Assembly (NCBI GenBank): GCA_017502165.1
Contig: JAFVVO010000039.1
Location: 1-49,864 of the forward strand
Length of the DNA: 49,864 nt
Direction: 5' to 3'
Source: Clostridia bacterium
Lineage (GTDB): Bacteria; Bacillota; Clostridia; Christensenellales; QALW01
Part shown: positions 3,335-40,845 of the stretch, piece by piece
Layout of the letters: every line of letters starts with the position of its first letter
How positions within the stretch are numbered: position 1 is the stretch's first letter
Notes under the pieces: model-generated
What the model saw: only the letters and a program-made list of their open reading frames with translations
What the model was told of the DNA's origin: nothing
Databases searched by the model: none
Position numbers and translations under genes: made by a program

Positions 3335-3350
3335 TAAGGATAAAATCAAA

Positions 3351-3380
3351 AGCCACGGAAACCCGTGGCTTTCATTTTTT
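3351..3380 (+). terminator. Intrinsic terminator after the Na/Pi cotransporter
   Basis: Stem AGCCACGG / CCGTGGCT with a short loop, followed by TTCATTTTTTC. It sits between two converging genes. Confidence 0.85.
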
Positions 3381-3381
3381 C

Positions 3382-3615
3382 TTAATCTTCAAAATCGTTA
3401 AAATATTCTTTATCGAAAAATTCCGACAAAGTTATTCCTGCTCCCTGGCAAAAGGATTTTATTGTTGAAACCTTTGAGCACTTTGTTCTGCCTTTTATCA
3501 GGTCATAGATTGCCGAGGGAGATTTTCCGCCGTTTAACGATACCTGGCAAACGTTTATATTCTTTTCTTGGCAGATTTCATCAATTCTTTTGATGATTGC
3601 GTCATTTATATTCAT
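3382..3615 (-). CDS. Small XRE-family (Cro/C1-type) HTH regulator
   Basis: A 77-residue protein that is essentially one helix-turn-helix domain. Residues about 10-65 fit the five-helix Cro/C1 fold: an INVCQVSLNGGKSPSAIYDLIKGR recognition region split over the turn, then a STIKSFCQGAGITLSEFF end typical of Clostridia XRE repressors. ATG 3615 has AGGTGAG. It diverges from the SLOG-family gene at 3767, and four operator-like palindromic or half sites fill the space between them. Autoregulation and control of the neighbour are inferred from that layout. No effector domain is present. Confidence 0.85.
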   Translation of the reverse strand: MNINDAIIKRIDEICQEKNINVCQVSLNGGKSPSAIYDLIKGRTKCSKVSTIKSFCQGAGITLSEFFDKEYFNDFED

Positions 3616-3624
3616 ATACTCACC

Positions 3625-3749
3625 TCGTGGAATTTCTTATTGGTGTTCCACGATTTATTATATGAATTATTAAATTTATTATCTCGTGGAGTTCCACGAT
3701 ATTGACTTATTGGCATTGTTTTGTTATAATTATTTGTGGAATTCCACGA
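3625..3749. promoter_or_regulatory. Cluster of palindromic operators (TCGTGGA-N2-TCCACGA)
   Basis: Site C at 3684-3699 is TCGTGGA-GT-TCCACGA with perfect 7-bp arms. Site D at 3734-3749 is TTGTGGA-AT-TCCACGA, with one arm mismatch. Site A (3625-3640) keeps only the left arm TCGTGGA, and site B (3638-3653) keeps the right arm TCCACGA. C abuts the -35 and D covers the predicted start of the plus-strand promoter. A and B overlap the start region of the XRE gene (TATAAT on the minus strand at 3662-3657). Binding by the adjacent XRE protein is inference. Confidence 0.8.
3702..3730 (+). promoter_or_regulatory. Sigma-A promoter of the SLOG-family gene
   Basis: TTGACT (3702-3707), 17-base spacer, TATAAT (3725-3730), lying exactly between operators C and D. 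Repressor binding at either site should block polymerase. Confidence 0.85.
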
Positions 3750-3766
3750 AAATTGTAGGTAGAAAA

Positions 3767-4231
3767 ATGAAAATTTGCTTTATAGGTCACAGAACTATCG
3801 ACAAAAACGAGCGTCTCATACTCTCTTTAAGAAGAACAGTTCAAACACTAATCAGCAAAGGGGCTGATACGTTTCTATTTGGAAGCATGAGTGAATTCGA
3901 CACTTTATCTTGGGAAGTTGTTACTGAATTAAAAAAAGATCACCCTTTTATTAAAAGAGTGTATGTTAGGTCTAGTTTCCAACACATTAACACATCTTAT
4001 GAAAACTATCTTCTCCAATCTTATGAGGAAACTTATTATCCGCCAAAATTAAAAAATGCGGGCAAATATTCTTACGTTGAGCGAAACTACGAAATGATTG
4101 ACAATTCCGCATATTGCATTTTTTATTACAACGAAAATTATTGTCCGACTACAAAACGTAATAGCGGTACAAAAACCGCTTACGAGTATGCCTTAAAAAA
4201 GAAGAAAAACATTATCAATCTATTCACTTAA
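3767..4231 (+). CDS. SLOG-family (DUF1273/YoqJ-like) putative nucleotide-binding protein
   Basis: A 154-residue protein beginning MKICFIGHR. The opening beta strand plus GHR, the central FLFGSMSEFD, a KRVYVRS strand and the C-terminal SGTKTAYEYA helix match the Rossmann-like SLOG superfamily (DUF1273-type proteins of Firmicutes). SLOG members are thought to bind or process nucleotides or nucleotide-derived signals, often in stress or mobile-element settings. The true substrate is unknown. I chose ATG 3767 with weak AGG at 3757-3759, because upstream in-frame codons would overlap the promoter and operators. The coding sequence is visibly more AT-rich than its neighbours, which suggests recent acquisition together with the XRE gene. 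Confidence 0.75.
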   Translation: MKICFIGHRTIDKNERLILSLRRTVQTLISKGADTFLFGSMSEFDTLSWEVVTELKKDHPFIKRVYVRSSFQHINTSYENYLLQSYEETYYPPKLKNAGKYSYVERNYEMIDNSAYCIFYYNENYCPTTKRNSGTKTAYEYALKKKKNIINLFT

Positions 4232-4260
4232 CGGGAGATTTTTTGATATTTCTCCCCTAC

Positions 4261-4319
4261 TTGTGCAAAGCGTTATTACAATTTGTGCATTTTGACAGTA
4301 GCGTGATTTTATCTATCGT
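4261..4319 (+). promoter_or_regulatory. Probable promoter of the sugar-ABC ATPase gene, with direct repeats
   Basis: TTGACA (4292-4297) and a weaker TATCGT (4314-4319) with 16-base spacing. Two copies of TTGTGCA (4261-4267 and 4283-4289) lie 22 bp apart, two helical turns, just upstream of the -35. That is a plausible activator or repressor binding arrangement, though the factor is not identifiable. Confidence 0.5.
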
Positions 4320-4355
4320 GTTACAATGAGAAAAAATAATTAGGAGGACTGTTTT

Positions 4356-5489
4356 ATGGCAGGCGTTACTTTAAGACACATTTACAAAGTATATCCCGGC
4401 GGTGTTACAGCCGTTAACGACTTTAACCTTGTAATTAAGGACAAGGAATTCATCGTTCTCGTTGGTCCCTCAGGTTGCGGTAAGTCAACCACACTTCGTA
4501 TGGTTGCAGGCCTTGAAGAGATTACCGAAGGTGAGCTTTTCATCGGTGACAAGCTGATGAACGACGTTGCTCCCAAGGACAGAGATATTGCAATGGTTTT
4601 CCAGAACTATGCTCTTTATCCCCACATGACCGTTTACGATAACATGGCTTTCGGCCTTAAGCTTCGTAAGGTTCATAAGGGCGAAATTGATAAGAAGGTT
4701 AAGGAAGCTGCAAAGGCTCTCGGTATTGAAGAATATCTTCAGAGAAAGCCCAAGGCTCTTTCCGGTGGTCAGCGTCAGCGTGTTGCTCTCGGCCGTGCTA
4801 TCGTTCGTGAGCCCATGGTATTCCTTATGGACGAACCTCTTTCAAACCTTGATGCTAAGCTCCGTGTACAGATGCGTACTGAAATTACAAGACTTCATAA
4901 GCGTCTTAACACCACCTTTATTTACGTTACTCACGACCAGACTGAAGCTATGACAATGGGTACCCGTATCGTTGTTATGAAGGACGGCTTCATTCAGCAG
5001 GTTGATACTCCCCAGAACCTTTACGATTACCCCACCAACAAGTTCGTTGCAGGCTTCATCGGTACTCCTCAGATGAACTTCTTTGACTGCACACTCGTTC
5101 GTGACGGTGACAAGGTTATTGCCCGTCTTGGCGAAAACAAGGTTGAGCTTCCTCAGGCAGTTATTTCCAAGCTTACCGACCAGAGCTATATCGGCAAGGA
5201 CGTTATTTTAGGTATCCGTCCCGACGATATCCACGATGAGCAGATCTTCATCGAATCTCATCCCGAAGCTAAGGTTAAAGCTCACGTTGAGCTTCTTGAA
5301 AAGCTTGGTTATGAAACTCTTGTTTATCTTGAAATGGATGCTTTCATTCAGGAGCAGGCAGATAACCCGGTTGCCCGTGTTAACCCCCGTTCAACCATTA
5401 TGTCAGGCGACGACGTTGTTCTTGCATTCGATCCCTACCGTATTCATCTTTTCGATAAGGACACCGAGGTTTCCATTCTCGAAAGATAA
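4356..5489 (+). CDS. msmX: ABC transporter ATPase, MalK/UgpC/MsmX type
   Basis: A 377-residue cytoplasmic ATPase energising carbohydrate ABC importers. The motifs are in order: Walker [10 protein letters not shown] (37-45), Q-loop Q83, signature LSGGQ (135-139), Walker B VFLMDE (155-160), H-loop H193. A C-terminal OB-fold regulatory domain (from about 240) has the MalK-like GIRPDDI segment. No permease or binding-protein gene is adjacent. It has its own promoter and terminator, as expected of the shared MsmX/MsmK ATPase that serves several sugar importers encoded elsewhere. The shared role is inferred from context. AGGAGG precedes ATG 4356. Confidence 0.88.
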
Positions 5490-5507
5490 TAAAGCAAATA
5501 AAATTAA

Positions 5508-5532
5508 GGCGCTCACAAGAGCGCCTTTTTTA
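5508..5532 (+). terminator. Intrinsic terminator after msmX
   Basis: GGCGCTC / GAGCGCC stem with ACAA loop (5508-5525) followed by a seven-T run. Confidence 0.92.
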
Positions 5533-5552
5533 TTTGCATTTTTGGCAAAAAC

Positions 5553-5580
5553 AAAAAACAGATGCTTTTTGCATCTGTTT
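5553..5580 (-). terminator. Intrinsic terminator of the exopolysaccharide gene pair
   Basis: AAACAGATGC / GCATCTGTTT stem around a five-base loop. Both flanks are A- or T-rich, so it can act in either direction and mainly serves the minus-strand genes ending at 5583. Confidence 0.8.
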
Positions 5581-5582
5581 TT

Positions 5583-6563
5583 TTACTTAAACACCGTATC
5601 AATAAAAGTATCAAAGGAATATTTTTTACGGATATTTTCTTCAATGGGCTTATAGGGAGTTTCGAAAAATTCCTTATCAAGCTTCACCTTATTGCCGTCA
5701 ATGACAAGCTGATTTTGACTGTCAAAGAATTCCTCATTGGTGCAATCAAAGGTGGTAACGATTTTCTTGCGCATACCGATCATTTCGCCAAGGCGGGTTG
5801 TGGCACCGCTTTGATAGCTGTTTTCAATTTCAAGCACCGCTACGGAATTTTTATAAATTTCAATGGTTTCCTCGGTGGAAATAGGCTTAAAATGTACCTG
5901 CTGACGTTTAACACCGCAGAAGCAGGGATTTACAAGCTTGTTATACCAGAACACCAACGGATGCGGTATGTAAACGAACTTGTAGAAGTTAAGCCCCAGT
6001 TTTTCACACTCCTTACCGATATGCTCAAGAACTCTCGGACGCACCGAATGAAGCGTGCCGATAAAAGCAAGGTCGTAAACGGGCTTTTGTGCCGATTCAA
6101 CGTCAAACTCCTTAGTGTAACCCCAATAGGCGTATTCCAGGAAGGAATATCTTTTAACGTCATCGTGGTCAAAGGAGAATATTTTATTGAAGTACGCAAA
6201 CTTTTTCGTAATATGCTTTACGTTGGCAACGGAATCCCACAGGTATAAAATGCGCTTAGCAAAGGGAAAACGGCGCTTGAACTTTTTGAGCACGTTAACG
6301 GTGGGAGCCTCACACTTGATAAACAGAATGTAATCGTAATCGTTTGGAAGCTCAGATAAAACGTTATCAAAATATTCTTCAATTACGCCGTGATACAAGC
6401 CAATATCTTTTCGCATTAAAATACGTGCTACGGCAGAATGGGAGGGCTGCTCGTCAACAACGTCAACCCTTGCGCCTCTGTCCCTCAATGCCTGAGAAAT
6501 GCGCTGATGATAATCGAAAAAGAACGGACTTACTATAAGTATGTTTTTATTACTCAAATCCAT
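5583..6563 (-). CDS. Putative glycosyltransferase (CgeB/GT-B-like)
   Basis: A 326-residue cytoplasmic protein. It opens with a GT-B-type NILIVSPFFFDYHQRISQAL segment. A middle block (YLWDSVANV..., then DLAFIGTLHSVRPRVL) resembles CgeB-type spore or polysaccharide glycosyltransferases, and a C-terminal TTRLGEMIGMRKKIVTTF looks like a donor-binding region. The acceptor sugar is not predictable. I start at ATG 6563, just after the upstream stop codon; ATG 6581 would overlap the sugar transferase by 17 bases, and neither has a good ribosome binding site. It is cotranscribed with the priming sugar transferase, so it probably adds the next sugar to the lipid-linked primer. Confidence 0.65.
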   Translation of the reverse strand: MDLSNKNILIVSPFFFDYHQRISQALRDRGARVDVVDEQPSHSAVARILMRKDIGLYHGVIEEYFDNVLSELPNDYDYILFIKCEAPTVNVLKKFKRRFPFAKRILYLWDSVANVKHITKKFAYFNKIFSFDHDDVKRYSFLEYAYWGYTKEFDVESAQKPVYDLAFIGTLHSVRPRVLEHIGKECEKLGLNFYKFVYIPHPLVFWYNKLVNPCFCGVKRQQVHFKPISTEETIEIYKNSVAVLEIENSYQSGATTRLGEMIGMRKKIVTTFDCTNEEFFDSQNQLVIDGNKVKLDKEFFETPYKPIEENIRKKYSFDTFIDTVFK

Positions 6564-6564
6564 A

Positions 6565-7236
6565 TTATCTTGCACCGTCATGATTGAACACTACGGCTAC
6601 CGTTCTGACGATACACTTAACGTCAAGCCAGAGTGAACGCATTTTAATATATTCTATATCGTAGACGATCTTTTCCTCAGGAAGCAAATCGTATCCGCCG
6701 TTTACCTGTGCCCAACCGGTTAAGCCGGGCTTAACGAGCAAACGCTTGGAAAAGCCGTGGATATACTCCTCAAACTGATTATAGAAGCAGGGGCGCTCGG
6801 GACGGGGACCTACAAGCGACATAGAGCCTACAAGAATATTGATAAGCTGGGGAAGCTCGTCTATCCTGGATTTACGCAAAAACTTGCCTACTCGGGTACA
6901 ACGCTCGTCATTTTCCTCTGCCCATTTTGCGCCGTCCTCTTCCGCATCCATTCTCATTGAACGGAATTTATAAAGCAAGAAGCTTTTGCCGCCCTTGCCT
7001 AATCTTTCCTGCTTATAAACTGCAGGACCGGGCGAATCGCACTTGATTATTATTGCAATAATAAGCATGGGCACGATACAAAAAGCCAAGCCGATAAGTG
7101 ACAGAATTATATCAAAGAAACGCTTTATGAAATTGTATAACGGTTTTTCGGATACTTCAACCTCAGGCACGTCGTACATACGGCGGTGCTTTGATTCGGT
7201 TTTTACCGTAGCATCCATTTCGTTAATATTCTCCAT
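6565..7236 (-). CDS. Undecaprenyl-phosphate sugar phosphotransferase (priming enzyme)
   Basis: A 223-residue bacterial sugar transferase of the EpsL/PglC/WcaJ-core type. One hydrophobic membrane segment at about 35-65 (FDIILSLIGLAFCIVPMLIIAIIIKC) is followed by the catalytic block: SPGPAVYKQERLGKGGK, LYKFRSMRMDAEEDG, SRIDELPQLINILVGSMSLVGPRPE and KPGLTGWAQVNG. It moves a sugar-1-phosphate from a nucleotide sugar to undecaprenyl phosphate, starting exopolysaccharide or glycan synthesis. It lacks the four-helix N-terminal part of WcaJ-like forms, so it is the short monotopic version. ATG 7236 has GGAG. Which polymer it starts cannot be told, because no other polysaccharide genes are here. Confidence 0.88.
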   Translation of the reverse strand: MENINEMDATVKTESKHRRMYDVPEVEVSEKPLYNFIKRFFDIILSLIGLAFCIVPMLIIAIIIKCDSPGPAVYKQERLGKGGKSFLLYKFRSMRMDAEEDGAKWAEENDERCTRVGKFLRKSRIDELPQLINILVGSMSLVGPRPERPCFYNQFEEYIHGFSKRLLVKPGLTGWAQVNGGYDLLPEEKIVYDIEYIKMRSLWLDVKCIVRTVAVVFNHDGAR

Positions 7237-7325
7237 GCATTAACTCCGAATTTTAATTTTTTAAGTCTTTCGTTGTATGCTTTCTTTACTAAAATAGCGG
7301 AAATAATTTATTCGCGCACATTGTT

Positions 7326-7355
7326 ATCATACCACATCTTATATATTATTGTCAA
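7326..7355 (-). promoter_or_regulatory. Promoter of the exopolysaccharide gene pair
   Basis: TTGACA (7355-7350), 18 bases, TATGAT (7331-7326) on the minus strand. The leader is about 80 bases. Confidence 0.75.
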
Positions 7356-7427
7356 ATATTTTGATTTGCATTAGTTTTTTGCGCATATTTGCAAAACACC
7401 TTTTATTTTTGTTCCGATATTCTTCTA

Positions 7428-7456
7428 TTGCGTTTTTTTGAACAATATTATATAAT
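7428..7456 (+). promoter_or_regulatory. Promoter of the dCMP deaminase-murG pair
   Basis: TTGCGT (7428-7433), 17 bases, TATAAT (7451-7456). Confidence 0.7.
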
Positions 7457-7496
7457 ATTCTCATAACCCCGCGAATAAACTTATTTGGAGGATATT

Positions 7497-7976
7497 ATGA
7501 AACGTACAGATTACATTTCCTGGGACGAATATTTTATGGGAATTGCCCTTCTTTCTGCTCAGCGCAGTAAGGATTCAGGTACTCAGGTCGGCGCCTGCAT
7601 AGTAAGTCAGGATAACAAAATTCTTACCGTTGGATATAACGGAATGCCTACGGGCTGTGATGACGACTGTATGCCCTGGGGCAGAGAAGGCGGTATGTTA
7701 GAGAGCAAATACGCTTTCGTTTGCCACGCAGAGCTTAATGCAATTTTGAACTGCGAAAGAGCTTCTCTTCGCGGCGCAAAGTGCTATACCACCCTTTTCC
7801 CCTGCAACGAATGTGCAAAGGCGCTTATTCAGTCCGGCGTTAAGGAGGTTATTTATCTTTCCGATAAATACGCCGAAACCGAAGGCACTATCGCATCAAA
7901 GAAAATGTTTAATATGGTAGGAGTAAAGCTTACCCCCTACGTTCCCACAGGCAGAAAACTTTCCTTGGAGCTTTAA
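7497..7976 (+). CDS. Deoxycytidylate (dCMP) deaminase
   Basis: A 159-residue zinc-dependent deaminase (ComEB/dCD family) that converts dCMP to dUMP, feeding dTMP synthesis. Zinc and catalytic residues are visible: the CHAEL motif (H77, proton-shuttle E79) and PCNEC (C103, C106). A second zinc site common in this family may use C54/C58 in GCDDDC. The start is ATG 7497 with GGAGG at 7487-7491; an in-frame TTG at 7485 overlaps that ribosome binding site and is unlikely. One base separates it from murG, so the two are cotranscribed. Confidence 0.92.
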   Translation: MKRTDYISWDEYFMGIALLSAQRSKDSGTQVGACIVSQDNKILTVGYNGMPTGCDDDCMPWGREGGMLESKYAFVCHAELNAILNCERASLRGAKCYTTLFPCNECAKALIQSGVKEVIYLSDKYAETEGTIASKKMFNMVGVKLTPYVPTGRKLSLEL

Positions 7977-7977
7977 T

Positions 7978-9039
7978 ATGAATTTTATATTTACCGGCGG
8001 CGGAACTGCAGGCCACGTTACGCCCAATATCGCCCTTATTCCCGTTATGCAGCAAAAGGGCTACTGCGTGCATTATATCGGCAGAGAAGAAGGCATTGAG
8101 CGCGACCTTATAGAAAAGATGCCCGGCGTAATCTACCACGGCATCAGTGCAGGTAAGCTTCGCCGCTACAACAATATTAAGAATTTAACCGACCCCTTTA
8201 GAGTTATTAAAGGATATTTTCAGTCCTTAAGCCTTATGCGGCAGATTAAGCCCGTAGGAATGTTCTCTAAGGGAGGCTTTGTTTCCGTTCCCGTAGTGCT
8301 TGCGGCAAACGCCCACAGGGTTCCAATAGTTATTCACGTATCGGATATGACTCCAGGTCTTGCCACAAAGCTGTGCGTGCCCTGCGCAAAAAAAGCCTGC
8401 ACCACCTTCCGTGCTACTGCCGAAGGTCTCGGTGAAAAGGCGGTTTGCACCGGCACACCCCTTCGTGATTCTCTCTTTCACGGAAGCAAAACCATTGCCC
8501 TTAAAAAGCTTGGCTTTGATTCTAAGCCCGTTATTTTAGTTATGGGCGGAAGCCTGGGCGCAAAGGCGGTTAACGACAACGTGCGTGCCGTTTTAGATAA
8601 GCTTTTACCCTTATTTAATATTATCCACATCTGCGGAAACGGCAAGCTTGACGAAAGCATAAACAAAACGGGTTACGTTCAGCTTGAATACGTTACCGAC
8701 GAGCTTCCCGATTTTATTGCCTGCGCCGATATAGTTATTTCCCGAGCAGGAAGCAACAGCATCAACGAATTTCTCGCTTTGTTTAAGCCAATGCTTTTAA
8801 TCCCTCTACCCTCCCTTCACTCCCGCGGTGACCAGCTTGTTAACGCAGAAGAATTTGAGCGTTTAGGCTACGCCAAACGGCTTGAGGAGGAAAATATCAC
8901 TCCCGAAAAGCTCGTTCTTGAAATCAAGGACCTCTATGCCTCCCAATCCAAATATATTGAAAATATGAAAAAAAGCGGAGCACATCTTGGAAGAGATAAG
9001 GTTATTGAGGTTATAATGTCAAGCATGGATAAGAAATAG
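7978..9039 (+). CDS. murG: MurG-type UDP-GlcNAc:lipid I N-acetylglucosaminyltransferase
   Basis: A 353-residue GT-B glycosyltransferase at the inner membrane face. It adds GlcNAc to undecaprenyl-PP-MurNAc-pentapeptide to make lipid II. The N-terminal glycine loop GGTAGH is at 8-13, the membrane-association region at about 60-95, the second glycine loop in MGGSLGAKAVN, and the donor-sugar motif in SRAGSNSINEFLALFKPMLLIPLP. The gene lies outside a division/cell-wall cluster, beside dCMP deaminase. Whether this is the only MurG or a second copy cannot be told from the window. Confidence 0.9.
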   Translation: MNFIFTGGGTAGHVTPNIALIPVMQQKGYCVHYIGREEGIERDLIEKMPGVIYHGISAGKLRRYNNIKNLTDPFRVIKGYFQSLSLMRQIKPVGMFSKGGFVSVPVVLAANAHRVPIVIHVSDMTPGLATKLCVPCAKKACTTFRATAEGLGEKAVCTGTPLRDSLFHGSKTIALKKLGFDSKPVILVMGGSLGAKAVNDNVRAVLDKLLPLFNIIHICGNGKLDESINKTGYVQLEYVTDELPDFIACADIVISRAGSNSINEFLALFKPMLLIPLPSLHSRGDQLVNAEEFERLGYAKRLEEENITPEKLVLEIKDLYASQSKYIENMKKSGAHLGRDKVIEVIMSSMDKK

Positions 9040-9076
9040 CCTTAACGCTTGAAGCACCAAACAAAATTCAGGTGTT

Positions 9077-9108
9077 GTTAAATTTCAATAAAGTTAAATT
9101 TCAATAAA
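9077..9108. repeat. Exact 16-bp tandem duplication
   Basis: GTTAAATTTCAATAAA occurs twice in direct succession, 9077-9092 and 9093-9108, between the murG stop and its terminator. It looks like a recent slippage duplication and no function is suggested. Confidence 0.9.
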
Positions 9109-9110
9109 AA

Positions 9111-9150
9111 AAGAGCTTATGCATCGCAGCATAAGCTCTTAATTTTTTTA
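9111..9150 (+). terminator. Bidirectional terminator between murG and the CNNM gene
   Basis: A perfect 12-bp stem AAGAGCTTATGC / GCATAAGCTCTT with a six-base loop. It is followed by AATTTTTTTA on the plus strand and preceded by an A-run serving the minus strand. Confidence 0.9.
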
Positions 9151-9152
9151 TT

Positions 9153-10484
9153 TTATTCGTCGTCCTCGTCTTCGGTTTCGGGTTTAGGCATAACCTTAAC
9201 GCAGATTTCCTGGGTGCGAAGCTCGTCAGCCTTGGTAATGGTTATAACGAGATTTTCGTATTCAAATTTGTGTCCCTCTTCGGGAATCATCTCGCATTGC
9301 TCGGTTATCCAGCCGTTAACCGTAGAAGACTCAATTTCCTCGTTTTCCTCTAAATTAAAGAACTCAAAGAATTCGTCAATGGCGGTAGTAGATAAAATAC
9401 GGTATTCGTTTTCGCCGATTTTCTCGAAGCTTTCGATTTCCTCGTCCTGCTCGTCCCAAATCTCGCCTACTATTTCTTCTAAAATGTCTTCCATAGTAAC
9501 AAGACCTGCGGTACCGCCGTACTCGTCAACAACTATTACGATATGGTTGTGGTCCATCTGCATTTCCTTAAAAAGTGCGTCAAGATGCACAGTTTCAGGA
9601 ACGAAGGTGGGAGCATACATAGCGTGACTTAACTCAAAATCCTTATTGGATCGCTTAAGCAGATAATCTCGTGCAAACAAGATGCCCGTAATATTATCAA
9701 CCGTGTCCGTATAAACGGGAATTCGTGAGTAGCCGCTGTTATCAATCAGAGCAAGAATTTCCTCGTCCGTCGCGTCGGAAGAAATAAGCTCGATGGAATT
9801 TCGGGGCGTCATAACGTCTGCCGCGGTAAGACGGTCAAGCTCAAACACGTTTTTGATATATTCAATGTCGTCCTTATTTAAGGTACCCTCTTCGGCGCCT
9901 GCATCAAGCATTATAACGATATCCTCTTCCGAAACCGTTTCCTCCTGGGCATTGGGGTCAATACCGAAAAGGCGAAGCATTCCGTTAGTTGAAACTGTTA
10001 AAAGCCAAACTACAGGTCTAAGAACTGCCATCAAAAATGCAATAAATCCGCTGACAGCGTTAGCAAGCTTTTCGGAATTTTTCATTGCAATACGCTTAGG
10101 CACAAGCTCGCCTAAAACAAGCGTAAAGAATGAAAGAATAATCGTAATTGCAATAACTGATACGTTGTCAATCAGACCAAGATACACGTTGGAAATATTG
10201 AACTTTGTTACCAACCAACCGCAAAGCATACCTGAAAAGTTGTCTGCAGCGAAAGCGGAGCCTAAAAAGCCCGCAAGAGTAATGCCTACCTGAATAGTGG
10301 AAAGGAAACGGGTGGGCTCCTTTATCAGCTTAAGCAACTTCTTTGCCTTTTTGTCGCCATCTTCAGCCTTTGCCTTTACCTTGTTTTCATTAAGGGAAAC
10401 AACTGCAATTTCCGTTGCGGCAAAAAAAGCGTTTAATAAAATCAATATAAACTGTAATATTAACTGTTTTATAATAGTAGTCAT
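9153..10484 (-). CDS. CNNM/CBS/CorC-domain membrane protein (hemolysin C family)
   Basis: A 443-residue member of the CNNM/TlyC family. The N-terminal CNNM membrane domain (about 1-190) has four hydrophobic segments and the family signature RFLSTIQVGITLAGFLGSAFAADNF. A CBS pair (about 205-330, starting VMTPRNSIELI) and a CorC_HlyC C-terminal domain (about 345-425) follow. Characterised bacterial relatives (MpfA, CorB) export Mg2+, so a divalent-metal efflux role is likely; the old haemolysin name is historical. The start is ATG 10484 with GGAGG; a TTG at 10496 would sit inside that site. It is preceded by an unusually long leader. Confidence 0.88.
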   Translation of the reverse strand: MTTIIKQLILQFILILLNAFFAATEIAVVSLNENKVKAKAEDGDKKAKKLLKLIKEPTRFLSTIQVGITLAGFLGSAFAADNFSGMLCGWLVTKFNISNVYLGLIDNVSVIAITIILSFFTLVLGELVPKRIAMKNSEKLANAVSGFIAFLMAVLRPVVWLLTVSTNGMLRLFGIDPNAQEETVSEEDIVIMLDAGAEEGTLNKDDIEYIKNVFELDRLTAADVMTPRNSIELISSDATDEEILALIDNSGYSRIPVYTDTVDNITGILFARDYLLKRSNKDFELSHAMYAPTFVPETVHLDALFKEMQMDHNHIVIVVDEYGGTAGLVTMEDILEEIVGEIWDEQDEEIESFEKIGENEYRILSTTAIDEFFEFFNLEENEEIESSTVNGWITEQCEMIPEEGHKFEYENLVITITKADELRTQEICVKVMPKPETEDEDDE

Positions 10485-10676
10485 ACAAACCTCCAAATTA
10501 AATAATCAAGTGCTTTTCTTTTTCTAACAACGCAAAAACAATTGCATACTGCTGAAAGAAAGGCGTGGGGTTTGAGTGACAATTTTTGTGTTCGTTGCAC
10601 AAAGTGTTGAAAATTGATTTAGCGTGCAACTTCGGGGAAGCGGATCCGTAAAACCATCTCCTTAAAATAATATAGT
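10485..10676 (-). promoter_or_regulatory. Long, partly structured 5' leader of the CNNM gene
   Basis: The mapped promoter places the RNA start about 190 bases before the ATG. Within it, GTTGCAC pairs with GTGCAAC (10622-10628 with 10594-10600), and a small CTTC/GAAG hairpin and a GGATCC palindrome lie upstream of that. An early AAGGAGATG with a 12-codon frame exists, but its spacing is too short for translation. I cannot match this leader to a riboswitch class and see no intrinsic terminator in it. Confidence 0.4.
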
Positions 10677-10682
10677 CAGTTT

Positions 10683-10711
10683 AGTATAACACAAATGGGA
10701 TTTTTTTGCAA
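10683..10711 (-). promoter_or_regulatory. Promoter of the CNNM gene
   Basis: TTGCAA (10711-10706), 17 bases, TATACT (10688-10683) on the minus strand. Confidence 0.7.
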
Positions 10712-10781
10712 GTGTTTTAACAAAATGCCAAAAAATGCCCCTTTTTATGTGATTTTCAGGGTAAAAATCAAAAAAACGCTT

Positions 10782-10808
10782 TTGTTTTACGGCCTTTAGG
10801 TGTATAAT
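10782..10808 (+). promoter_or_regulatory. Probable promoter of the proBAC operon
   Basis: A perfect TATAAT at 10803-10808 with a weak TTGTTT at 10782-10787 (15-base spacing). Initiation near 10815 leaves a leader of only about 22 bases, so no attenuator is present. Confidence 0.55.
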
Positions 10809-10836
10809 GAATAAAATTACATTTTCAGGAGTTATT

Positions 10837-11601
10837 ATGCGTACAGTAGTTAAAATAGGCACCAGCACCCTTGCACACGCTACGGGCCACCTTAACATTC
10901 GCAGAGTTGAAGAGATCTGCAAAATAATAAGTGACATTAAAAACGCAGGCCACGAAATTATTATGGTTTCATCCGGCGCCATCGGTATGGGCGTTGGAAA
11001 ATTAGGGCTTCCCGGCAGACCTAACGACATTCCTACCAAGCAGGCATCCGCCGCAGTAGGTCAGTGCGAGCTTATGTACGTTTACGATAAGCTTTTCAGC
11101 GAATACAATCACACCGTAGGTCAGCTTCTTATTACCGGAGCCGATATTGAAAGCGAAACACGCCACAACAACTTCAGCAACACCCTTTCTCGTTTGCTTG
11201 AGCTTGGTGCTATTCCGATTATCAACGAAAACGACACCGTTGCAACAGACGAAATCGTTATCGGTGATAACGACACCTTAGCGGCAATAGTTGCTAAAAG
11301 CGTTAAAGCGGATTTACTCGTTCTGCTTTCTGATATTGACGGTCTTTATACTGCCGACCCCCACAAAAATCCCGATGCAAAGCTTATTCAGGAGGTTAAC
11401 GAGGTTTCTGCCGAAATTTATGAGCTTGCTTCCGGCAAGGGCTCTGAACTGGGAACCGGCGGAATGGTGACAAAGCTTAACGCTGCAAAAATCTGTCTTG
11501 AATCAGGCTGTCAGATGGTTATCACCAATGGCGACCATCCCGAAAACCTTTATTCTATTATTGACGGTGAGTCCGTAGGCACAAGATTCATTGCAAAATA
11601 A
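10837..11601 (+). CDS. proB: Glutamate 5-kinase
   Basis: A 254-residue amino-acid-kinase-family enzyme catalysing the ATP-dependent first step of proline synthesis (glutamate to gamma-glutamyl phosphate). The N-terminal VVKIGTSTLA phosphate loop, the glycine-rich VSSGAIGMGVGKLG and the glutamate/Mg site NENDTVATDEIVIGDNDTLAA are present. It ends after the kinase domain, without the C-terminal PUA domain of E. coli ProB, which is common in Firmicutes. ATG 10837 has CAGGAG; the ATG at 10807 overlaps the -10 element. It is first in the proB-proA-proC operon. Confidence 0.93.
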   Translation: MRTVVKIGTSTLAHATGHLNIRRVEEICKIISDIKNAGHEIIMVSSGAIGMGVGKLGLPGRPNDIPTKQASAAVGQCELMYVYDKLFSEYNHTVGQLLITGADIESETRHNNFSNTLSRLLELGAIPIINENDTVATDEIVIGDNDTLAAIVAKSVKADLLVLLSDIDGLYTADPHKNPDAKLIQEVNEVSAEIYELASGKGSELGTGGMVTKLNAAKICLESGCQMVITNGDHPENLYSIIDGESVGTRFIAK

Positions 11602-11622
11602 TTTAATTACTTGGTGAATATT

Positions 11623-12873
11623 ATGTTTGAAATGCTGAAAAATGCAAAAAAAGCAAAGTCTGCCGTTGCACGATTAAGCACCGAGCAGAAAAATAAGGCT
11701 CTGAACGAAATGGCTCAGGCTCTGCTTAACAATAAAGAGAATATTCTCTCTGCTAACGCTCTTGACGTTGAAAAGGCAAAAAGCACGGTTTCATCCGTTA
11801 TGATTGACCGCCTTATGTTAACAAGCGCAAGAATCGACGCTATGGCAGAGGGCATCCGTCAGGTTGCGCTCCTGCCCGATCCCACTAACAGAATCTTAGA
11901 AGAATTTGTCCGCGAGGACGGCTTAAAAATTCAGAAGATTTCCGTACCTATGGGAGTTGTTGCAATTATTTACGAAAGCCGCCCCAACGTTACAAGCGAT
12001 GCGGCTGCTCTTGCAATTAAGTCGGGCAACGTTTGCGTGCTTCGCGGAGGAAAGGAAGCCTTTTTTTCGGCTAACGCTATCGTTAACGCATTAAAGGAAG
12101 GTCTTAAAAACGCCTCAGTTACTCCCGACGCAGTTAATCTGGTGCAGGACATAACCCGTGAAAGTGCAAATCAGCTTATGACTGCAGAGGGCTACGTTGA
12201 CCTGCTTATTCCCCGTGGCGGCGCGGGACTTATAAACGCCTGCGTTAAAAACGCCACCGTTCCCTGCATTGCAACAGGTACGGGCATCTGCCACGTTTTC
12301 GTTGAGAAAACTGCCGATTTATCTATGGCGGAGAAAATAATTGAAAATGCAAAAACAAGCCGTCCGAGCGTTTGCAACGCAGAAGAGGTTTTGCTTGTTG
12401 ACAAATGTATTGCAGAAGAATTTTTGCCGAGAATTAAAGAGCTTCTCGTAGATAAGCGCATTGAAAGCGGTAAAACTCCCGTGGAGCTCCGCCTTGATGA
12501 ATTTGCGCAAAAAATCATTCCCGGCACTGTTGCAGGGGAAAATGATTTTGATACGGAGTTTTTAGATTATATTTTGGCAATCAAATGTGTTGACGGTGTG
12601 CTTGAAGCGGTTGAGCATATTTCCGCTCATTCTACCGGTCACAGCGAAGCCATTATAACAAATGATGAAAATGCCAAGAACGTTTTTGTAGGCGGCATTG
12701 ATTCTGCGGCAGTTTACGTTAACGCTTCCACCCGTTTTACCGACGGCGGAGAGTTCGGTCTCGGTTGCGAAATGGGCATTTCTACCCAAAAGCTTCACGC
12801 AAGAGGTCCTATGGGACTTCGTGAGCTTAACACTTATAAATACGTAATTTCAGGTGACGGTCACGTCAGATAA
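11623..12873 (+). CDS. proA: Glutamate-5-semialdehyde dehydrogenase (gamma-glutamyl phosphate reductase)
   Basis: A 416-residue aldehyde-dehydrogenase-superfamily enzyme that reduces gamma-glutamyl phosphate with NADPH to glutamate semialdehyde, which cyclises to pyrroline-5-carboxylate. The catalytic cysteine is in RPSVCNAEEV (about residue 251), the NADP-binding region includes IYESRPNVTSDAAALAIKSGN, and the family motif TDGGEFGLGCEMGISTQ is near the C-terminus. The gene is 21 bases after proB. ATG 11623 gives the usual family length; the upstream SD (TTGGTGA) is weak, suggesting partial dependence on coupling with proB. Confidence 0.94.
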   Translation: MFEMLKNAKKAKSAVARLSTEQKNKALNEMAQALLNNKENILSANALDVEKAKSTVSSVMIDRLMLTSARIDAMAEGIRQVALLPDPTNRILEEFVREDGLKIQKISVPMGVVAIIYESRPNVTSDAAALAIKSGNVCVLRGGKEAFFSANAIVNALKEGLKNASVTPDAVNLVQDITRESANQLMTAEGYVDLLIPRGGAGLINACVKNATVPCIATGTGICHVFVEKTADLSMAEKIIENAKTSRPSVCNAEEVLLVDKCIAEEFLPRIKELLVDKRIESGKTPVELRLDEFAQKIIPGTVAGENDFDTEFLDYILAIKCVDGVLEAVEHISAHSTGHSEAIITNDENAKNVFVGGIDSAAVYVNASTRFTDGGEFGLGCEMGISTQKLHARGPMGLRELNTYKYVISGDGHVR

Positions 12874-12889
12874 GAAAGGAAATATATTT

Positions 12890-13681
12890 ATGAAAATCGG
12901 TTTTATCGGTTGCGGTAATATGGGCGGTGCTTTAGCAAAAGCCGTTGCAAAAACAAATAACCAACTTATGTTAGCAGATTTTTGTTTGGAAAAAGCAAAG
13001 GCTCTTGCAAAGGAATTAAACTGCGAATTTGGCACAAATCAAGAGGTGTTTTCCTCTTGCGATATGGTATTTTTAGGCGTTAAGCCTCAGGTTATGGAGC
13101 AGATGCTTGCCCCCGAAAAAGAGCTTATCTGCCAGAGAAAGCCAATACTTGTTTCTATGGCAGCAGGCTTGGAAATTGCAACCATCGGCGCATTTTCCTG
13201 CGTGGACGCTCCCATTATCAGAATTATGCCCAACACCTGCGTTACGGTTGGGGAGGGCATGGTGCTTTACTGCGTTAACTCCTTAGTAACAGACGAAATT
13301 GAAAAGGCTTTTGTTGACTTGCTGTCTTTTGCAGGAAAGCTCGATAAAATTCCCGAAAATCTTATGGATGCAGGTTGCTCTGTTTCAGGTTGCGGTCCTG
13401 CATATATGTATATGTATCTTGAAGCCCTTGCCGACGGTGCGGTTGCCTGCGGTCTTCCAAGAGAAAAGGCTATAAAATATGCGGCACAGACAATGCTCGG
13501 CTCGGCAAAAATGGTACTTGCCAGCGGTAAACACCCTGAATTGCTCAAAGACGAGGTTTGCTCACCTGCAGGAAGCACTATTGAAGGAGTAAAAGCCCTT
13601 GAGGACGGATGTCTCCGCGCTTGCGCAATTAACGCGGTTAACAAGGCGTATAAAAGAAACAAAGAGCTTGGCAAAAAGTAA
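12890..13681 (+). CDS. proC: Pyrroline-5-carboxylate reductase
   Basis: A 263-residue enzyme completing proline synthesis (P5C to proline with NAD(P)H). The N-terminal Rossmann motif is GFIGCGNMGGAL (about 4-15). The C-terminal dimerisation domain holds the family signature PAGSTIEGVKALEDG near residues 225-240. ATG 12890 is preceded by GAAAGGA, and it lies 16 bases after proA, so all three proline steps are in one transcript ending at the hairpin at 13711. Confidence 0.94.
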   Translation: MKIGFIGCGNMGGALAKAVAKTNNQLMLADFCLEKAKALAKELNCEFGTNQEVFSSCDMVFLGVKPQVMEQMLAPEKELICQRKPILVSMAAGLEIATIGAFSCVDAPIIRIMPNTCVTVGEGMVLYCVNSLVTDEIEKAFVDLLSFAGKLDKIPENLMDAGCSVSGCGPAYMYMYLEALADGAVACGLPREKAIKYAAQTMLGSAKMVLASGKHPELLKDEVCSPAGSTIEGVKALEDGCLRACAINAVNKAYKRNKELGKK

Positions 13682-13710
13682 TATAATGAATTGCAAACGT
13701 AAATCAAATA

Positions 13711-13758
13711 AAAACTCTCGCTTATTCGGTCACTGAGCCGAAAACGAGAGTTTTTTGT
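13711..13758 (+). terminator. Bidirectional terminator between proC and the SPOR gene
   Basis: Outer stem AAAACTCTCG / CGAGAGTTTT with an inner TTCGGT/GCCGAA hairpin, followed by a T-run. Confidence 0.88.
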
Positions 13759-14556
13759 TTATTCTAAATCGGAACAAAACTTAACGTATTCGCAGGCAAA
13801 GGCACAGGAAACGTAGTTAAGCTTGCGGTTAAATTCCGCGTCACTGCTTTGTGGAAGCTCGGCAAAAAGCGTTGAGCAAAGCGCCATCATATCCTGCATT
13901 GCCACTATGAAGGTGTTGGACGATTCCAGCTCCCTAAGCGCCCTTTCGCTCTCCGCCTGCCTTGATGCAAGCTTTTGAAGTTCTCCGCTTGCTTTTAACG
14001 AAGTAAGCTCTTCCTCGGCAACCTTTGCACTTACCTCTGCCAAGGTTTCCGTTGCCGCAGACAGAAAATCAATGCATCCTTTTACCGTTTCGGTCTGCGC
14101 GCTTGTTCCCGTAATTTTCAGGGAAATTTTATCTACCTTAAGGGTTACCACGGCAGCATCCTTAAAAGTCCCCTGAAGCCTTTGGACGCTTGCCTCCGCT
14201 GACGCTTTATCCTTATAACAGCTATGCATCACGTGATAACCCGAATCGGTTTTAAGGCAATATCCCCCGCCGCCTGCGGAGGATACGTTTTTTATTGCCG
14301 CCTCAGCCTCAGCCTTTTCCTCGAACAAGCCTGCGGAAACTAAAAACATCTCCGTTTTTTTGCAGGAAACGGTTTCGGTTGAAACCTTTTCTTCCTGCTT
14401 TGCGCCTATATTCATTAAGGGGTCTATTACCCTTTGAGCCATAAACTTCCCCACGGAATTTATACTGAAAACAGCTACCGCAAAAACCAAAACGATACCT
14501 GCGGCAAGCAGATTTTTCTTCATTTCCCTCTGCTTTGTCCTTCTTGATGTGCCCAT
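13759..14556 (-). CDS. Membrane-anchored SPOR-domain-like protein
   Basis: A 265-residue protein with a basic cytoplasmic N-terminus (SRRTKQREMKKN), one membrane helix at about 18-38 and an extracellular part. Residues about 65-135 resemble a SPOR domain: two repeats beginning MFLVSAGLFEEKAEAEAAI and YHVMHSCYKDKASAEASV. SPOR domains bind denuded peptidoglycan at division sites or in sporangia. The C-terminal 130 residues are helical (probably coiled coil) and unassigned. ATG 14556 has AGGTGA; the GTG at 14565 lies within that site. A role in wall or sporulation events is inferred from the domain only. Confidence 0.7.
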   Translation of the reverse strand: MGTSRRTKQREMKKNLLAAGIVLVFAVAVFSINSVGKFMAQRVIDPLMNIGAKQEEKVSTETVSCKKTEMFLVSAGLFEEKAEAEAAIKNVSSAGGGGYCLKTDSGYHVMHSCYKDKASAEASVQRLQGTFKDAAVVTLKVDKISLKITGTSAQTETVKGCIDFLSAATETLAEVSAKVAEEELTSLKASGELQKLASRQAESERALRELESSNTFIVAMQDMMALCSTLFAELPQSSDAEFNRKLNYVSCAFACEYVKFCSDLE

Positions 14557-14666
14557 TATCTTCACCTCAACAGATTCTATGACGTAAGCGAATGGAAAAT
14601 AACCTTTTTTCTTGAGCTTTTTTTGGATTTTTTTGCGTCAAAACGCCCAAAAACAAGCGTATTTGC

Positions 14667-14695
14667 TTGTCAATTTTAACGGTATATGATAGAAT
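14667..14695 (+). promoter_or_regulatory. Promoter of the typA operon
   Basis: TTGTCA (14667-14672), 17 bases, TAGAAT (14690-14695). The leader is about 50 bases. Confidence 0.65.
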
Positions 14696-14752
14696 ATACC
14701 AATAATATAATGGGTTATTATTACTTTAATTTATTCAAAAGAGGTTTTGTTA

Positions 14753-16585
14753 GTGAAAAGAGAAGACATAAGAAACATTGCAATCATTGCTCACGTTGAC
14801 CACGGTAAGACCACGTTAGTTGACGAAATGCTTAAGCAAAGCGGTCTGTTCCGCGAAAACCAGCAGCTTCAGGACAGAATGATGGACTCAGGTGATATTG
14901 AAAGAGAAAGAGGCATTACCATTCTTTCCAAAAACACCTCTATCAGATATAAGGACACTAAAATCAACGTTGTTGACACCCCCGGCCACGCTGACTTCGG
15001 CGGTGAGGTTGAACGTGTTCTCAAAATGACCAGCGGCGTCGTTCTGCTTGTTGACTCCTTTGAGGGTCCTATGCCCCAGACGCGCTTCGTGCTTTCCAAG
15101 GCTCTTGAGCTTGGCTTAAAGGTTATAGTTGTTATTAACAAGATGGACCGTCCCGACGCCCGTCCCGACGGTGTTGCCGACGAGGTTTTCGATTTATTTA
15201 TCGAGCTTGGTGCTGACGATTCACAGCTTGACTGCCCCTTTATTTACGCTTCGGGCCGCTCCGGCACCGCTTCCCTTGACCCTAACGACTTAGGCACCGA
15301 TATGGTTCCCTTGTTCGACGCTATACTTAAATACGTTCCCGCCCCCGAATGTGAGGAAAACGAGCCAGTTCAGATGCTTGTTTCCACCATCGACTACAAT
15401 GAATACGTTGGCAGAATCGGTATCGGCAAAATCGAACGCGGTACGCTTAAGGCAGGAGATATGGTTTCTCTTTGCACCTACGGCACCGAGGGCGCACGCA
15501 GTAACGTTCGCATAACAAGCCTCAGCGTTTTTGAAGGTCTTAAGCGCGTTAACGTTGAATCTGCTAAAGCAGGTGAAATCGTTGCAGTTTCAGGCGTAAC
15601 CGAAATCAATATCGGTGACACTCTTTGTAAGCCTGACTGCATTGAGCCTCTTCCCTTCGTTAAAATTACCGAGCCTACGGTTAGCATGACCTTCTCGGTT
15701 AACGATTCACCCTTTGCAGGTAAAGAGGGCAAATATTTAACAAGCCGTCATATCCGCGCACGCCTTTACAGAGAAATTGAAACTGACGTTTCTCTGCGCG
15801 TTGAGGACACGGATTCTGCCGACAGCTTTAAGGTTTCGGGCCGCGGTGAGCTTCACCTTTCAATTTTAATCGAGAATATGCGCCGTCAGGGCTATGAATT
15901 GCAGGTAAGCAAGCCCGAGGTGCTTTATAAGACCATCGACGGCAAGCGTTGCGAGCCTATGGAAAGAGTTATTATTGACGTGCCCGACCAATATTCAGGA
16001 ACCGTTATTCAGCACATGGGCACCAACCACGGTGAAATGGTTAATATGCTTTCACTTAGCGACACCATGCGCAGAATGGAGTTTATCGTTCCCGCAAGAG
16101 GTCTGTTCGGCTACCGTTCCAGTTTCCTGACCGACACCCACGGTGAAGGCGTTATGAATTCCGTTTTTGAGGGCTACGCTCCCTATAAGGGTGAAATGCC
16201 CGGCAGAAAGAACGGCTCACTTATCGCCTTTGAAACGGGAGAGTCTATCACCTACGGTCTGTTTAACGCTCAGGAGCGCGGCACCTTATTTATCGGCGCA
16301 GGCGAGCAGGTTTACAGCGGTATGATAGTTGGTGAAAGCTCACGTCCCGAGGACATTGAGGTTAACGTTTGCAAGAGAAAGAATATGACTAACTCCCGTT
16401 CAGCCGGAAGTGACGATGCTCTTCATCTTATTCCCCCCAAGCGTATGAGCTTGGAGCAGGCACTTGAATATCTCGGTGAAGACGAGCTTGCGGAAATTAC
16501 CCCCAACAACATTCGTATCCGCAAAAAGATTCTTGATCCCACTTTAAGATACCGTGCCGCAAAGATTAACAGCCGTCAGAACTAA
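14753..16585 (+). CDS. typA: Translational GTPase TypA/BipA
   Basis: A 610-residue ribosome-associated GTPase related to EF-G, involved in 50S maturation and stress adaptation. G1 is AHVDHGKTT (13-21), G2 lies in [14 protein letters not shown]3 is [16 protein letters not shown] and G4 is NKMDRP. EF-G-like domains II, III and V follow, with the BipA-specific C-terminal region ([29 protein letters not shown]). I chose the GTG start at 14753, eight bases after GAGG; the TTG at 14747 would be too close to the ribosome binding site. It is first in a run with the AI-2E permease and two metabolic genes. Confidence 0.95.
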
Positions 16586-39582: not shown

Positions 39583-40059
39583 ATGAAGGCTACTATTGAA
39601 ATGAAGGACGGCGGCAAAATGGTTTTTGCTCTTGATGAAGCTGCCGCACCCTTAACGGTTAAAAACTTTGCCCGTTTAGCAAAGGAAGATTTTTATGAGG
39701 ACGTTATTTTCCACAGAGTTATATCAGGCTTTATGATTCAGGGCGGTGACCCCACCGGCACAGGCACGGGCGGCCCCGGATATTCAATTAAGGGCGAGTT
39801 TGCCGCAAACGGCGTTCAAAACCCCATTAAGCACGTGCGCGGTGTAATTTCCATGGCACGCGCAATGGACCCCAACTCTGCAGGAAGTCAGTTCTTTATT
39901 ATGCACGCTGACGCTCCCCATCTTGACGGCCAGTACGCCGCTTTCGGCACAATGCTTGAAGGCTTCGAGGTGCTTGATAAAATCGCTTCTGCCCTCTGCG
40001 ACGTTTACGACAGACCTTACGAGGATTTTGCAATCAAAAAGGTTACCGTTGAAGAATAA
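39583..40059 (+). CDS. Cyclophilin-type peptidyl-prolyl isomerase
   Basis: A 158-residue cytoplasmic cyclophilin. The active site is visible: FHRVISGFMIQGGDPTGTGTGGPGY (catalytic Arg in FHR), GSQFFI and HLDGQYAAFG. There is no signal peptide. It catalyses cis-trans isomerisation of prolyl bonds in protein folding. GGAGG precedes the ATG, three bases after ricT. It is the last gene of the operon. Confidence 0.93.
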   Translation: MKATIEMKDGGKMVFALDEAAAPLTVKNFARLAKEDFYEDVIFHRVISGFMIQGGDPTGTGTGGPGYSIKGEFAANGVQNPIKHVRGVISMARAMDPNSAGSQFFIMHADAPHLDGQYAAFGTMLEGFEVLDKIASALCDVYDRPYEDFAIKKVTVEE

Positions 40060-40080: not shown

Positions 40081-40110
40081 AAAGACCTTGAAAAAGGTCT
40101 TTTATTTTTT
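40081..40110 (+). terminator. Terminator of the darA operon
   Basis: AAAGACCTT / AAGGTCTTT stem with GAAA tetraloop (40081-40102), followed by TATTTTTT. Confidence 0.9.
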
Positions 40111-40122
40111 GAAAATAAAATG

Positions 40123-40151
40123 TTGATAAAAAATTTTTTATGTGTTATACT
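40123..40151 (+). promoter_or_regulatory. Promoter of the small membrane peptide-orphan gene pair
   Basis: TTGATA (40123-40128), 17 bases, TATACT (40146-40151). Predicted start at about 40158, which is the 5' edge of the long inverted repeat, so the message begins with the stem arm. Confidence 0.75.
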
Positions 40152-40154
40152 ATC

Positions 40155-40299
40155 GTTGCCAAACAAACTGAATATAGAAAGAAGGAGGGGTTCCTATGTT
40201 TTTTTATACGTTTTGGAACATACCCGTTAAAAACGTGGGCTCCTCAGCGAAGCGTATAAGTTCAAAACAACTTCTCCTTCGTTCAGTTTGTTTGGCGAC
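40155..40299 (+). ncRNA. Long-range mRNA stem that buries the ribosome binding site
   Basis: The 5' arm 40155-40172 (GTTGCCAAACAAACTGAA) pairs with 40282-40299 over 18 bp with one G-U. After an eight-base bulge, 40181-40190 (GAAGGAGGGG), which is the ribosome binding site of the small ORF, pairs with 40271-40280 (CTTCTCCTTC) over 10 bp with two G-U pairs. Smaller pairings inside the loop (TATACG 40205-40210 with CGTATA 40253-40258; TATGTT at the start codon with AACATA 40217-40222) add structure. The 3' arm lies in codons 26-35 of the small ORF. Seen directly; regulatory effect inferred. Confidence 0.75.
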
Positions 40300-40369
40300 A
40301 ATCGGAGCTTGCGTTTTATGTGCGTCCGCTTCGGTTGGCGCACTTTTTTATTTTTGGGGGATTTTTTGA
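40196..40369 (+). CDS. 57-residue putative membrane peptide
   Basis: A short ORF, ATG 40196 to TGA 40369, with a very strong ribosome binding site (AAGGAGGGG, five bases before the ATG). The product starts MFFYTFWNIPVKN, has a basic middle (SSAKRISSKQ) and ends in about 30 hydrophobic residues (from LLLRSV to YFWGIF) able to form one membrane helix. It contains three cysteines. Its stop overlaps the next start as TGATG. No family is recognised. Its ribosome binding site is paired in the stem 40155-40299. Size and hydrophobicity resemble type I toxin peptides or small membrane regulators; which of these it is cannot be decided from sequence. Confidence 0.7.
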   Translation: MFFYTFWNIPVKNVGSSAKRISSKQLLLRSVCLATIGACVLCASASVGALFYFWGIF

Positions 40370-40845
40370 TGCATTACGCAGAAGAGGCATTAATCAACGC
40401 CATAAGAGGTCTTAAAGCATTTCCTCCCCTTGCGCAAAAGAACTGCTTTCGTTGTTCTTTATGCTTTGGGCTGGGCAAAACGCTTGAATTTCACTATTCC
40501 TTCCGTCAAATCAGCTTTGAGTACACTTATATCGACGAGCATACAGAATGCACGCTGATGTGCCTTAATTTTAACGCCGAAAGCACAAGGCTTGAAATTC
40601 TTGCTTTTTACAATAACATTTCTTTAAGGGGCTATATAGATAAAATGCTTCCTGCAGGCAAAAGAATTGCAGAGCTTGTTACCACTAACCCAACAGACGA
40701 GCAAAAGGACGTATTTGGAAAGAGCTATTCCGAAATTTTATCCGTTTGCAACAACGTAACTGATTTTTCCCTGCAAACCATAGATGCGTTATTAAAAAAA
40801 GAAAACAGCCTGTTATCGCTTAACGATTTTGGCTTTACGTTATGA
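40369..40845 (+). CDS. Hypothetical protein translationally coupled to the small peptide
   Basis: A 158-residue soluble protein starting MHYAEEALINAIRG at ATG 40369, which overlaps the preceding TGA. It has no ribosome binding site of its own close by (GGGGG at 40356-40360 is nine bases upstream and may help). It has a CFRCSLCFG segment near 26-34 and mixed alpha/beta content, and no signal or membrane helix. I recognise no domain. Starts further upstream in this frame (40288) would run through the small ORF and are unlikely. Coupling implies that its synthesis follows that of the peptide. Confidence 0.7.
   Translation: MHYAEEALINAIRGLKAFPPLAQKNCFRCSLCFGLGKTLEFHYSFRQISFEYTYIDEHTECTLMCLNFNAESTRLEILAFYNNISLRGYIDKMLPAGKRIAELVTTNPTDEQKDVFGKSYSEILSVCNNVTDFSLQTIDALLKKENSLLSLNDFGFTL

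Follow-up and report, generated by a model that had tools for sequence, protein, structure and literature searches.

Organization of the locus

The analysed DNA, referred to as the window, is a 49,864-nucleotide stretch of a Clostridia bacterium genome (contig JAFVVO010000039.1); the leader elements and ORFs described below lie on its forward strand. A gene for a cyclophilin-type isomerase occupies 39583-40059. It is followed by a terminator-like hairpin (40081-40102), so the downstream unit, composed of a structured leader and ORF2, stands alone. In the sister species G001, a different gene lies on the opposite strand 26 bases past the homologous isomerase gene. The leader and ORF2 are thus an accessory feature of this place.

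A promoter scan identifies a sigma-70 promoter, TTGATA-17-TATACT, at 40123-40151, with a TG preceding the second hexamer. The family profile places the -10 box at the same distance from the stem as in the window. Transcription is predicted to start near 40158, within the 5′ arm of a long stem. A start downstream of 40172 would have refuted the locked message proposed in an initial annotation of this DNA; the predicted start lies upstream of that position. The antisense strand contains one weak promoter-like match (9/12).

ORF2 (158 aa, 40369-40845) is the gene proposed to be controlled by the leader. It has no Pfam match, and no relative was found among 150 related genomes or in viral contigs. 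A second frame, ORF1 (57 aa, 40196-40369), runs across the leader and its terminator and is probably fortuitous.

Fold of the leader

Direct reading shows that 40155-40172 (GTTGCCAAACAAACTGAA) pairs with 40282-40299 (TTCAGTTTGTTTGGCGAC) at 18 positions, with one G-U pair, and that 40181-40190 (GAAGGAGGGG) pairs with 40271-40280 at ten of ten positions, with two G-U pairs. The 28 pairs of the initial annotation, including its three G-U pairs, are all present base for base. Folding of 40150-40375, which had been suggested as a check, yields a minimum free energy of -79.5 kcal/mol (z -6.04). Shuffled sequences reach -53.9 ± 4.2 kcal/mol, and none of 200 folds as well as the native one. The folding of this region is far beyond chance.

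The outermost helix, P1, consists of 40155-40172 and 40282-40299. It is supported by pairing, by the fold, and by covariation in 31 aligned copies. The RNA fold adds P2, built from 40181-40191 and 40270-40280, whose 5′ arm contains the segment formerly read as a ribosome binding site (RBS). The stem extends beyond the part first described: 40197-40215 pairs with 40248-40269, interrupted by one bulge, to form an inner stem (P4). The predicted fold of the window copy contains P1, P2, the inner stem, a full pseudoknot, an antiterminator and a terminator, and lacks the local hairpin P3 of other copies. The hairpin at 40155-40299 is the 5′ domain of a structured leader.

Anatomy and distribution of the family

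The family consists of leaders about 200 nucleotides long in gut Clostridia, each with its own promoter. A typical copy is sequentially composed of P1, which begins at the transcription start, an internal loop, P2, a junction with the local hairpin P3, and P4. P4 is capped by an apical hairpin, P5, formed by GAATTTG, a loop with AAAAYG, and CAAATTC. The 3′ side of P1 is followed by CGGAGTTTGCGTTTT, a hairpin with a U-tract, and finally an RBS and a gene. The stem is preserved by compensatory change in many homologs, in agreement with the earlier proposal of selection on RNA structure. An anchored profile of the family contains few conserved unpaired bases, and pairing explains nearly all of its conserved positions.

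The 3′ part of the leader (40287-40357) is repeated on another contig of the same genome, C37, where an upstream copy lacks the 5′ arm. It recurs in 11 of 61 genomes searched, the own genome included. A pattern scan of public genomes retrieved 18 further stretches, all from Clostridia metagenome-assembled genomes and nearly all from the ruminant gut. The 3′ core was turned into a covariance model, R1, which finds homologs with an unchanged order of parts in 82 of 396 genomes from the order and in 81 of 391 from the class, with up to 12 copies per genome. In a sample of 398 genomes of the phylum, R1 matches the window's own genome and none of the 397 others. Tandem arrays with no gene of note between the copies occur in L031 (5005-5749, three copies) and L002 (167-500, two copies).

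The plasmid collection contains no match to the leader. The phage collection gives three matches, of which H1 resembles bacterial DNA and H3 matches only in part, within a terminase gene. Four of seven pattern matches in viral contigs (L229, L231, L233, and L235) have no R1 match, and L231 is an unrelated phage-type contig. Three IMG/VR contigs bear the leader with an identical R1 score of 73.6 and are perhaps one element sampled repeatedly. A phage-like contig with reverse transcriptase-like and amidase-like genes, L075 (IMG/VR 3300028242_000769), carries a shorter, divergent type of leader 5′ of a small gene.

Rfam 15, searched at gathering and at relaxed thresholds, gave no match over the element. 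No description of the leader was found in the open-access papers searched. The family is apparently undescribed, and may go by another name outside Rfam and the open-access literature.

Pseudoknot, antiterminator, and terminator

The apical loop and the 3′ strand of P5 (40230-40243, AAAACGTGGGCTCC) pair at all 14 positions with 40304-40317 (GGAGCTTGCGTTTT), forming a pseudoknot with three G-U pairs that is supported by pairing and by cis covariation. Throughout the family, the P5 loop and its 3′ side pair over 14 positions with GGAGTTTGCGTTTT. Across the 31 aligned copies, 99.1% of the cells are paired and three pairs display changes on both sides. All 14 positions pair in 104 of 141 copies and at least 13 in 132 of them, compared with an average best match of 11.2 in shuffled upstream DNA; in a few copies, such as L121, the best-match search selects another segment. 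In the 123 copies whose loop lies where expected, the strands pair better in cis than in any of 2000 partner swaps, by a narrow margin (13.80 versus 13.69 pairs). That the pseudoknot sequence is so strongly conserved suggests a partner shared by the copies.

The antiterminator is formed by 40299-40308 (CAATCGGAGC), which overlaps the pseudoknot strand, and 40328-40337 (GCTTCGGTTG), both assigned by covariation and folding. The intrinsic terminator occupies 40320-40355. Its stem pairs GTGCGTC (40320-40326) with GGCGCAC (40337-40343) and is followed by a T-rich tract (40344-40355). A fixed-loop scan missed it because the loop is longer than 8 nt. The antiterminator pairing, CAAUCGGAGC with GCUUCGGUUG, is incompatible with both the pseudoknot and the terminator.

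The antiterminator covaries in the combinations CAA/UUG, CUA/UAG, and CAG/CUG. Its energy is -12.0 kcal/mol in cis versus -9.9 for swapped partners (best swap -10.3), and the middle stems reach -16.7 in cis versus -3.4 with the arms swapped; these folding energies leave aside pseudoknot loop costs and co-transcriptional kinetics. When the region is folded alone, the antiterminator forms in 103 of 120 copies. When the 14-nt strand is barred from pairing, which mimics the pseudoknot, the terminator forms in 120 of 120. The helices are mutually exclusive, and their sequences are conserved and covary in cis. Two features expected of an attenuator leader are present: a promoter and an untranslated leader directly 5′ of a gene, and, in silico, a conserved antiterminator and intrinsic terminator that exclude each other. 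The conserved parts, namely the apical loop, pseudoknot strand, antiterminator, and terminator, all point to transcription control of the gene past the terminator.

Downstream genes and modular exchange

A start codon lies 10-32 nt past the U-tract in 91 of 140 copies, as picked by a script that leaves some starts uncertain. In certain copies, the gene is 40-100 nt away. The 130 downstream proteins fall into 95 clusters, 79 of which are singletons. BspA-type leucine-rich repeat proteins account for 15 of 126, and a simple pattern finds lipobox-like sequences in 37. Zinc-ribbon proteins and DNA methylases are also present.

Leaders with 80-94% identical stems precede unrelated genes. In most of 22 pairs examined, leader similarity stops 44-82 bases past the start of the core, which corresponds to the terminator or the RBS. 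The converse is found in G590 (L150, L152, and L160), where the upstream flanks are 84-88% alike and the genes are related, with dissimilar stems; congeners retain one of the three stems at the matching locus. The combination of like leaders with unlike genes and like genes with unlike stems indicates that leaders and genes are swapped as modules. Much of this swapping would follow from single crossovers within the conserved core.

Mobile DNA around leaders

In genome G550, a 13.5-kb element splits a leader at CGACT(TC)GG (L225, G550:C6:2000-20000, 2952 to 16437; also L220). At the corresponding locus, G610 and G454 carry intact leaders that match the flanks of the element. The 2-bp TC overlap is taken from both junctions, and the joined flanks show one extra T at the overlap. 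The element ends in TGTTAAATGASTATAAGGAAG as an inverted repeat and encodes a large serine recombinase with DUF4368, a Mob_Pre relaxase, TnpV, Phage_rep_org_N, and an IstB-like protein, with SPFH and DUF6591 genes as cargo. In G570 (L226, G570:C51:58471, 1480-1521), the end of a related TnpV-bearing element occupies the same core position of another leader. This leader precedes a different gene, and the far end of the element lies past the contig end. These two cases show that the leader core can serve as an attachment site, which does not imply that this is its role.

The G550 element itself contains a divergent leader-like element (L225, 4690-4900), with a P1 of GTCACATACTTACAATA and TATTGTAAGTGTGTGAC and a terminator. 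It lies upstream of a ribbon-helix-helix-like gene and the SPFH gene.

Within 1 kb upstream of leaders (69 kb scanned), fifteen tRNA genes are found on the same strand and three on the other. With 50 tRNA genes in every 2 Mb, about one per strand would be expected. At one locus, L035, a leader and its gene lie between an intact tRNA-Val gene (2120-2196) and a partial tRNA-Val copy (~3847-3880), an arrangement as after integration at a tRNA gene. A tRNA 3′ fragment was seen at this locus only.

Proposed mechanism and alternatives

We consider that 40123-40368 is probably a promoter with a cis-acting transcription-attenuator leader for ORF2, gated by the pseudoknot. Transcription would begin at the foot of the long stem. 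Pairing of 40230-40243 with 40304-40317 would block the antiterminator, allowing the terminator at 40320-40355 to fold and turning ORF2 off. When the pseudoknot is absent, 40299-40308 would pair with 40328-40337, the terminator would be broken, and ORF2 would be transcribed. That the leader switches transcription in the cell, with the pseudoknot as the off state, is inferred. Because pairing explains nearly all conserved positions, the switch is no less likely to be set by a protein or RNA partner than by a small ligand. The same observation argues mildly against a classical ligand pocket. On the basis of sequence, the family is most likely a new class of a known kind, the transcription-attenuating leader, widespread in Clostridia and attached to accessory and mobile genes. 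Several points count against attenuation: the gene-free tandem arrays (L031), the genes 40-100 nt away, and the lack of a recognizable aptamer and of a common gene function.

The arrays would also suit an unlikely alternative, in which the short terminated RNA functions in its own right as a stable, trans-acting small RNA, and transcription occasionally reads through into the next gene. The element has its own promoter and terminator and a paired 5′ end, and the universal loop of any copy could bind core strands elsewhere; foreign pseudoknot strands would pair nearly as well as the native ones (13.69 of 14 on average). However, this alternative does not explain why the antiterminator is conserved or why the gene begins about 20 nt past the U-tract, and the pseudoknot and antiterminator covary in cis.

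It is rather improbable that the palindrome and core act primarily as DNA, as a recombination site that moves gene cassettes or mobile elements, with the RNA features being secondary. The exchange boundary at the terminator, the serine-recombinase element at the same dinucleotide in two leaders, and the frequent upstream tRNA genes would fit such a site. However, the promoter spacing, G-U pairs, antiterminator, and U-tract are conserved RNA features, and the insertions found number two. A repeat or MITE as the sole explanation is ruled out by the conserved promoter spacing, pseudoknot, and competing helices.

The initial annotation envisaged a message for the 57-residue ORF1 that is translated only while nascent, its coding region later pairing with its own RBS; the pairing, the SD-like sequence, and the ORF do coincide in the window, but a Shine-Dalgarno sequence, ATG, and frame open through the terminator are combined in one of 120 copies, the window itself, and are absent from the 119 others, which makes this model very improbable. 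ORF1 is unconserved, it crosses the conserved terminator, and its matches in relatives are mainly translated conserved RNA core. The supposed RBS at 40181-40190 belongs to the variable middle stem, and nearly all other copies lack an SD sequence followed by a start codon there. Instead of the suggested operon with a coupled second gene, the locus more likely comprises a single leader and a single gene, ORF2. A coding leader peptide is likewise ruled out by the lack of a conserved frame across the 120 copies.

The attenuator reading can be extended, tentatively, to the class: mobile RNA switches might set acquired genes to a default-off state, with the core doubling as a serine-recombinase attachment site. 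If this is true, the same 60 bases serve both to exchange genes and to regulate them. The leader is present in about one-fifth of the Clostridia genomes sampled, in up to 12 copies each, and no Rfam 15 family describes it. One RNA mechanism, whose signal can now be looked for, would govern many accessory genes, including those for surface proteins, lipoproteins, DNA methylases, and orphans. This bears on how gut bacteria keep newly acquired genes silent until needed, and the modular exchange and integration-site use provide testable predictions.

Comparison with known systems

In hok-type type I toxin mRNAs, which are locked over a long distance, the 5′ end pairs with a distant segment. The window copy resembles them, and was originally likened to them, in that such pairing hides an SD-like sequence, a feature of this copy alone. 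In contrast, a conserved small ORF is not found within the element (one frame in 120 copies), no toxin-like product was recognized, and what is conserved in the 3′ part is a terminator switch.

MITE or Correia-type repeats are palindromic, promoter-bearing sequences present in many copies per genome near accessory genes. The leaders are also multicopy and palindromic, with a promoter, and lie near accessory genes. Unlike such repeats, the leaders vary freely in stem sequence while pairing is kept, conserve the pseudoknot and terminator switch, and always point towards a gene in the copies read.

In AbiF/RCd22 and type III toxin-antitoxin systems, the RNA binds the single protein encoded after it (PMC12373285). 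Those systems share with the leaders a structured RNA with its own promoter next to an accessory gene. The leaders differ from that description (PMC12373285) in preceding about 95 kinds of protein rather than one cognate family.

An integron attC-like site would flank each cassette and be served by a tyrosine integron integrase; the leaders were seen 5′ of genes.

A metabolite riboswitch would be expected to match a known aptamer class and to precede genes of one pathway. No such class was found in Rfam 15, and the 130 downstream proteins (95 clusters) belong to diverse families. Transcription-attenuating riboswitches and protein-binding leaders of Bacillota are among the closest known systems. 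The present family differs from them in having no Rfam match, regulated genes without a common pathway, variable stems with few conserved unpaired bases, and leaders and genes swapped between loci. It resembles them in its 5′ leader with a structured upstream domain, its alternative antiterminator and terminator, and the gene right past the U-tract.
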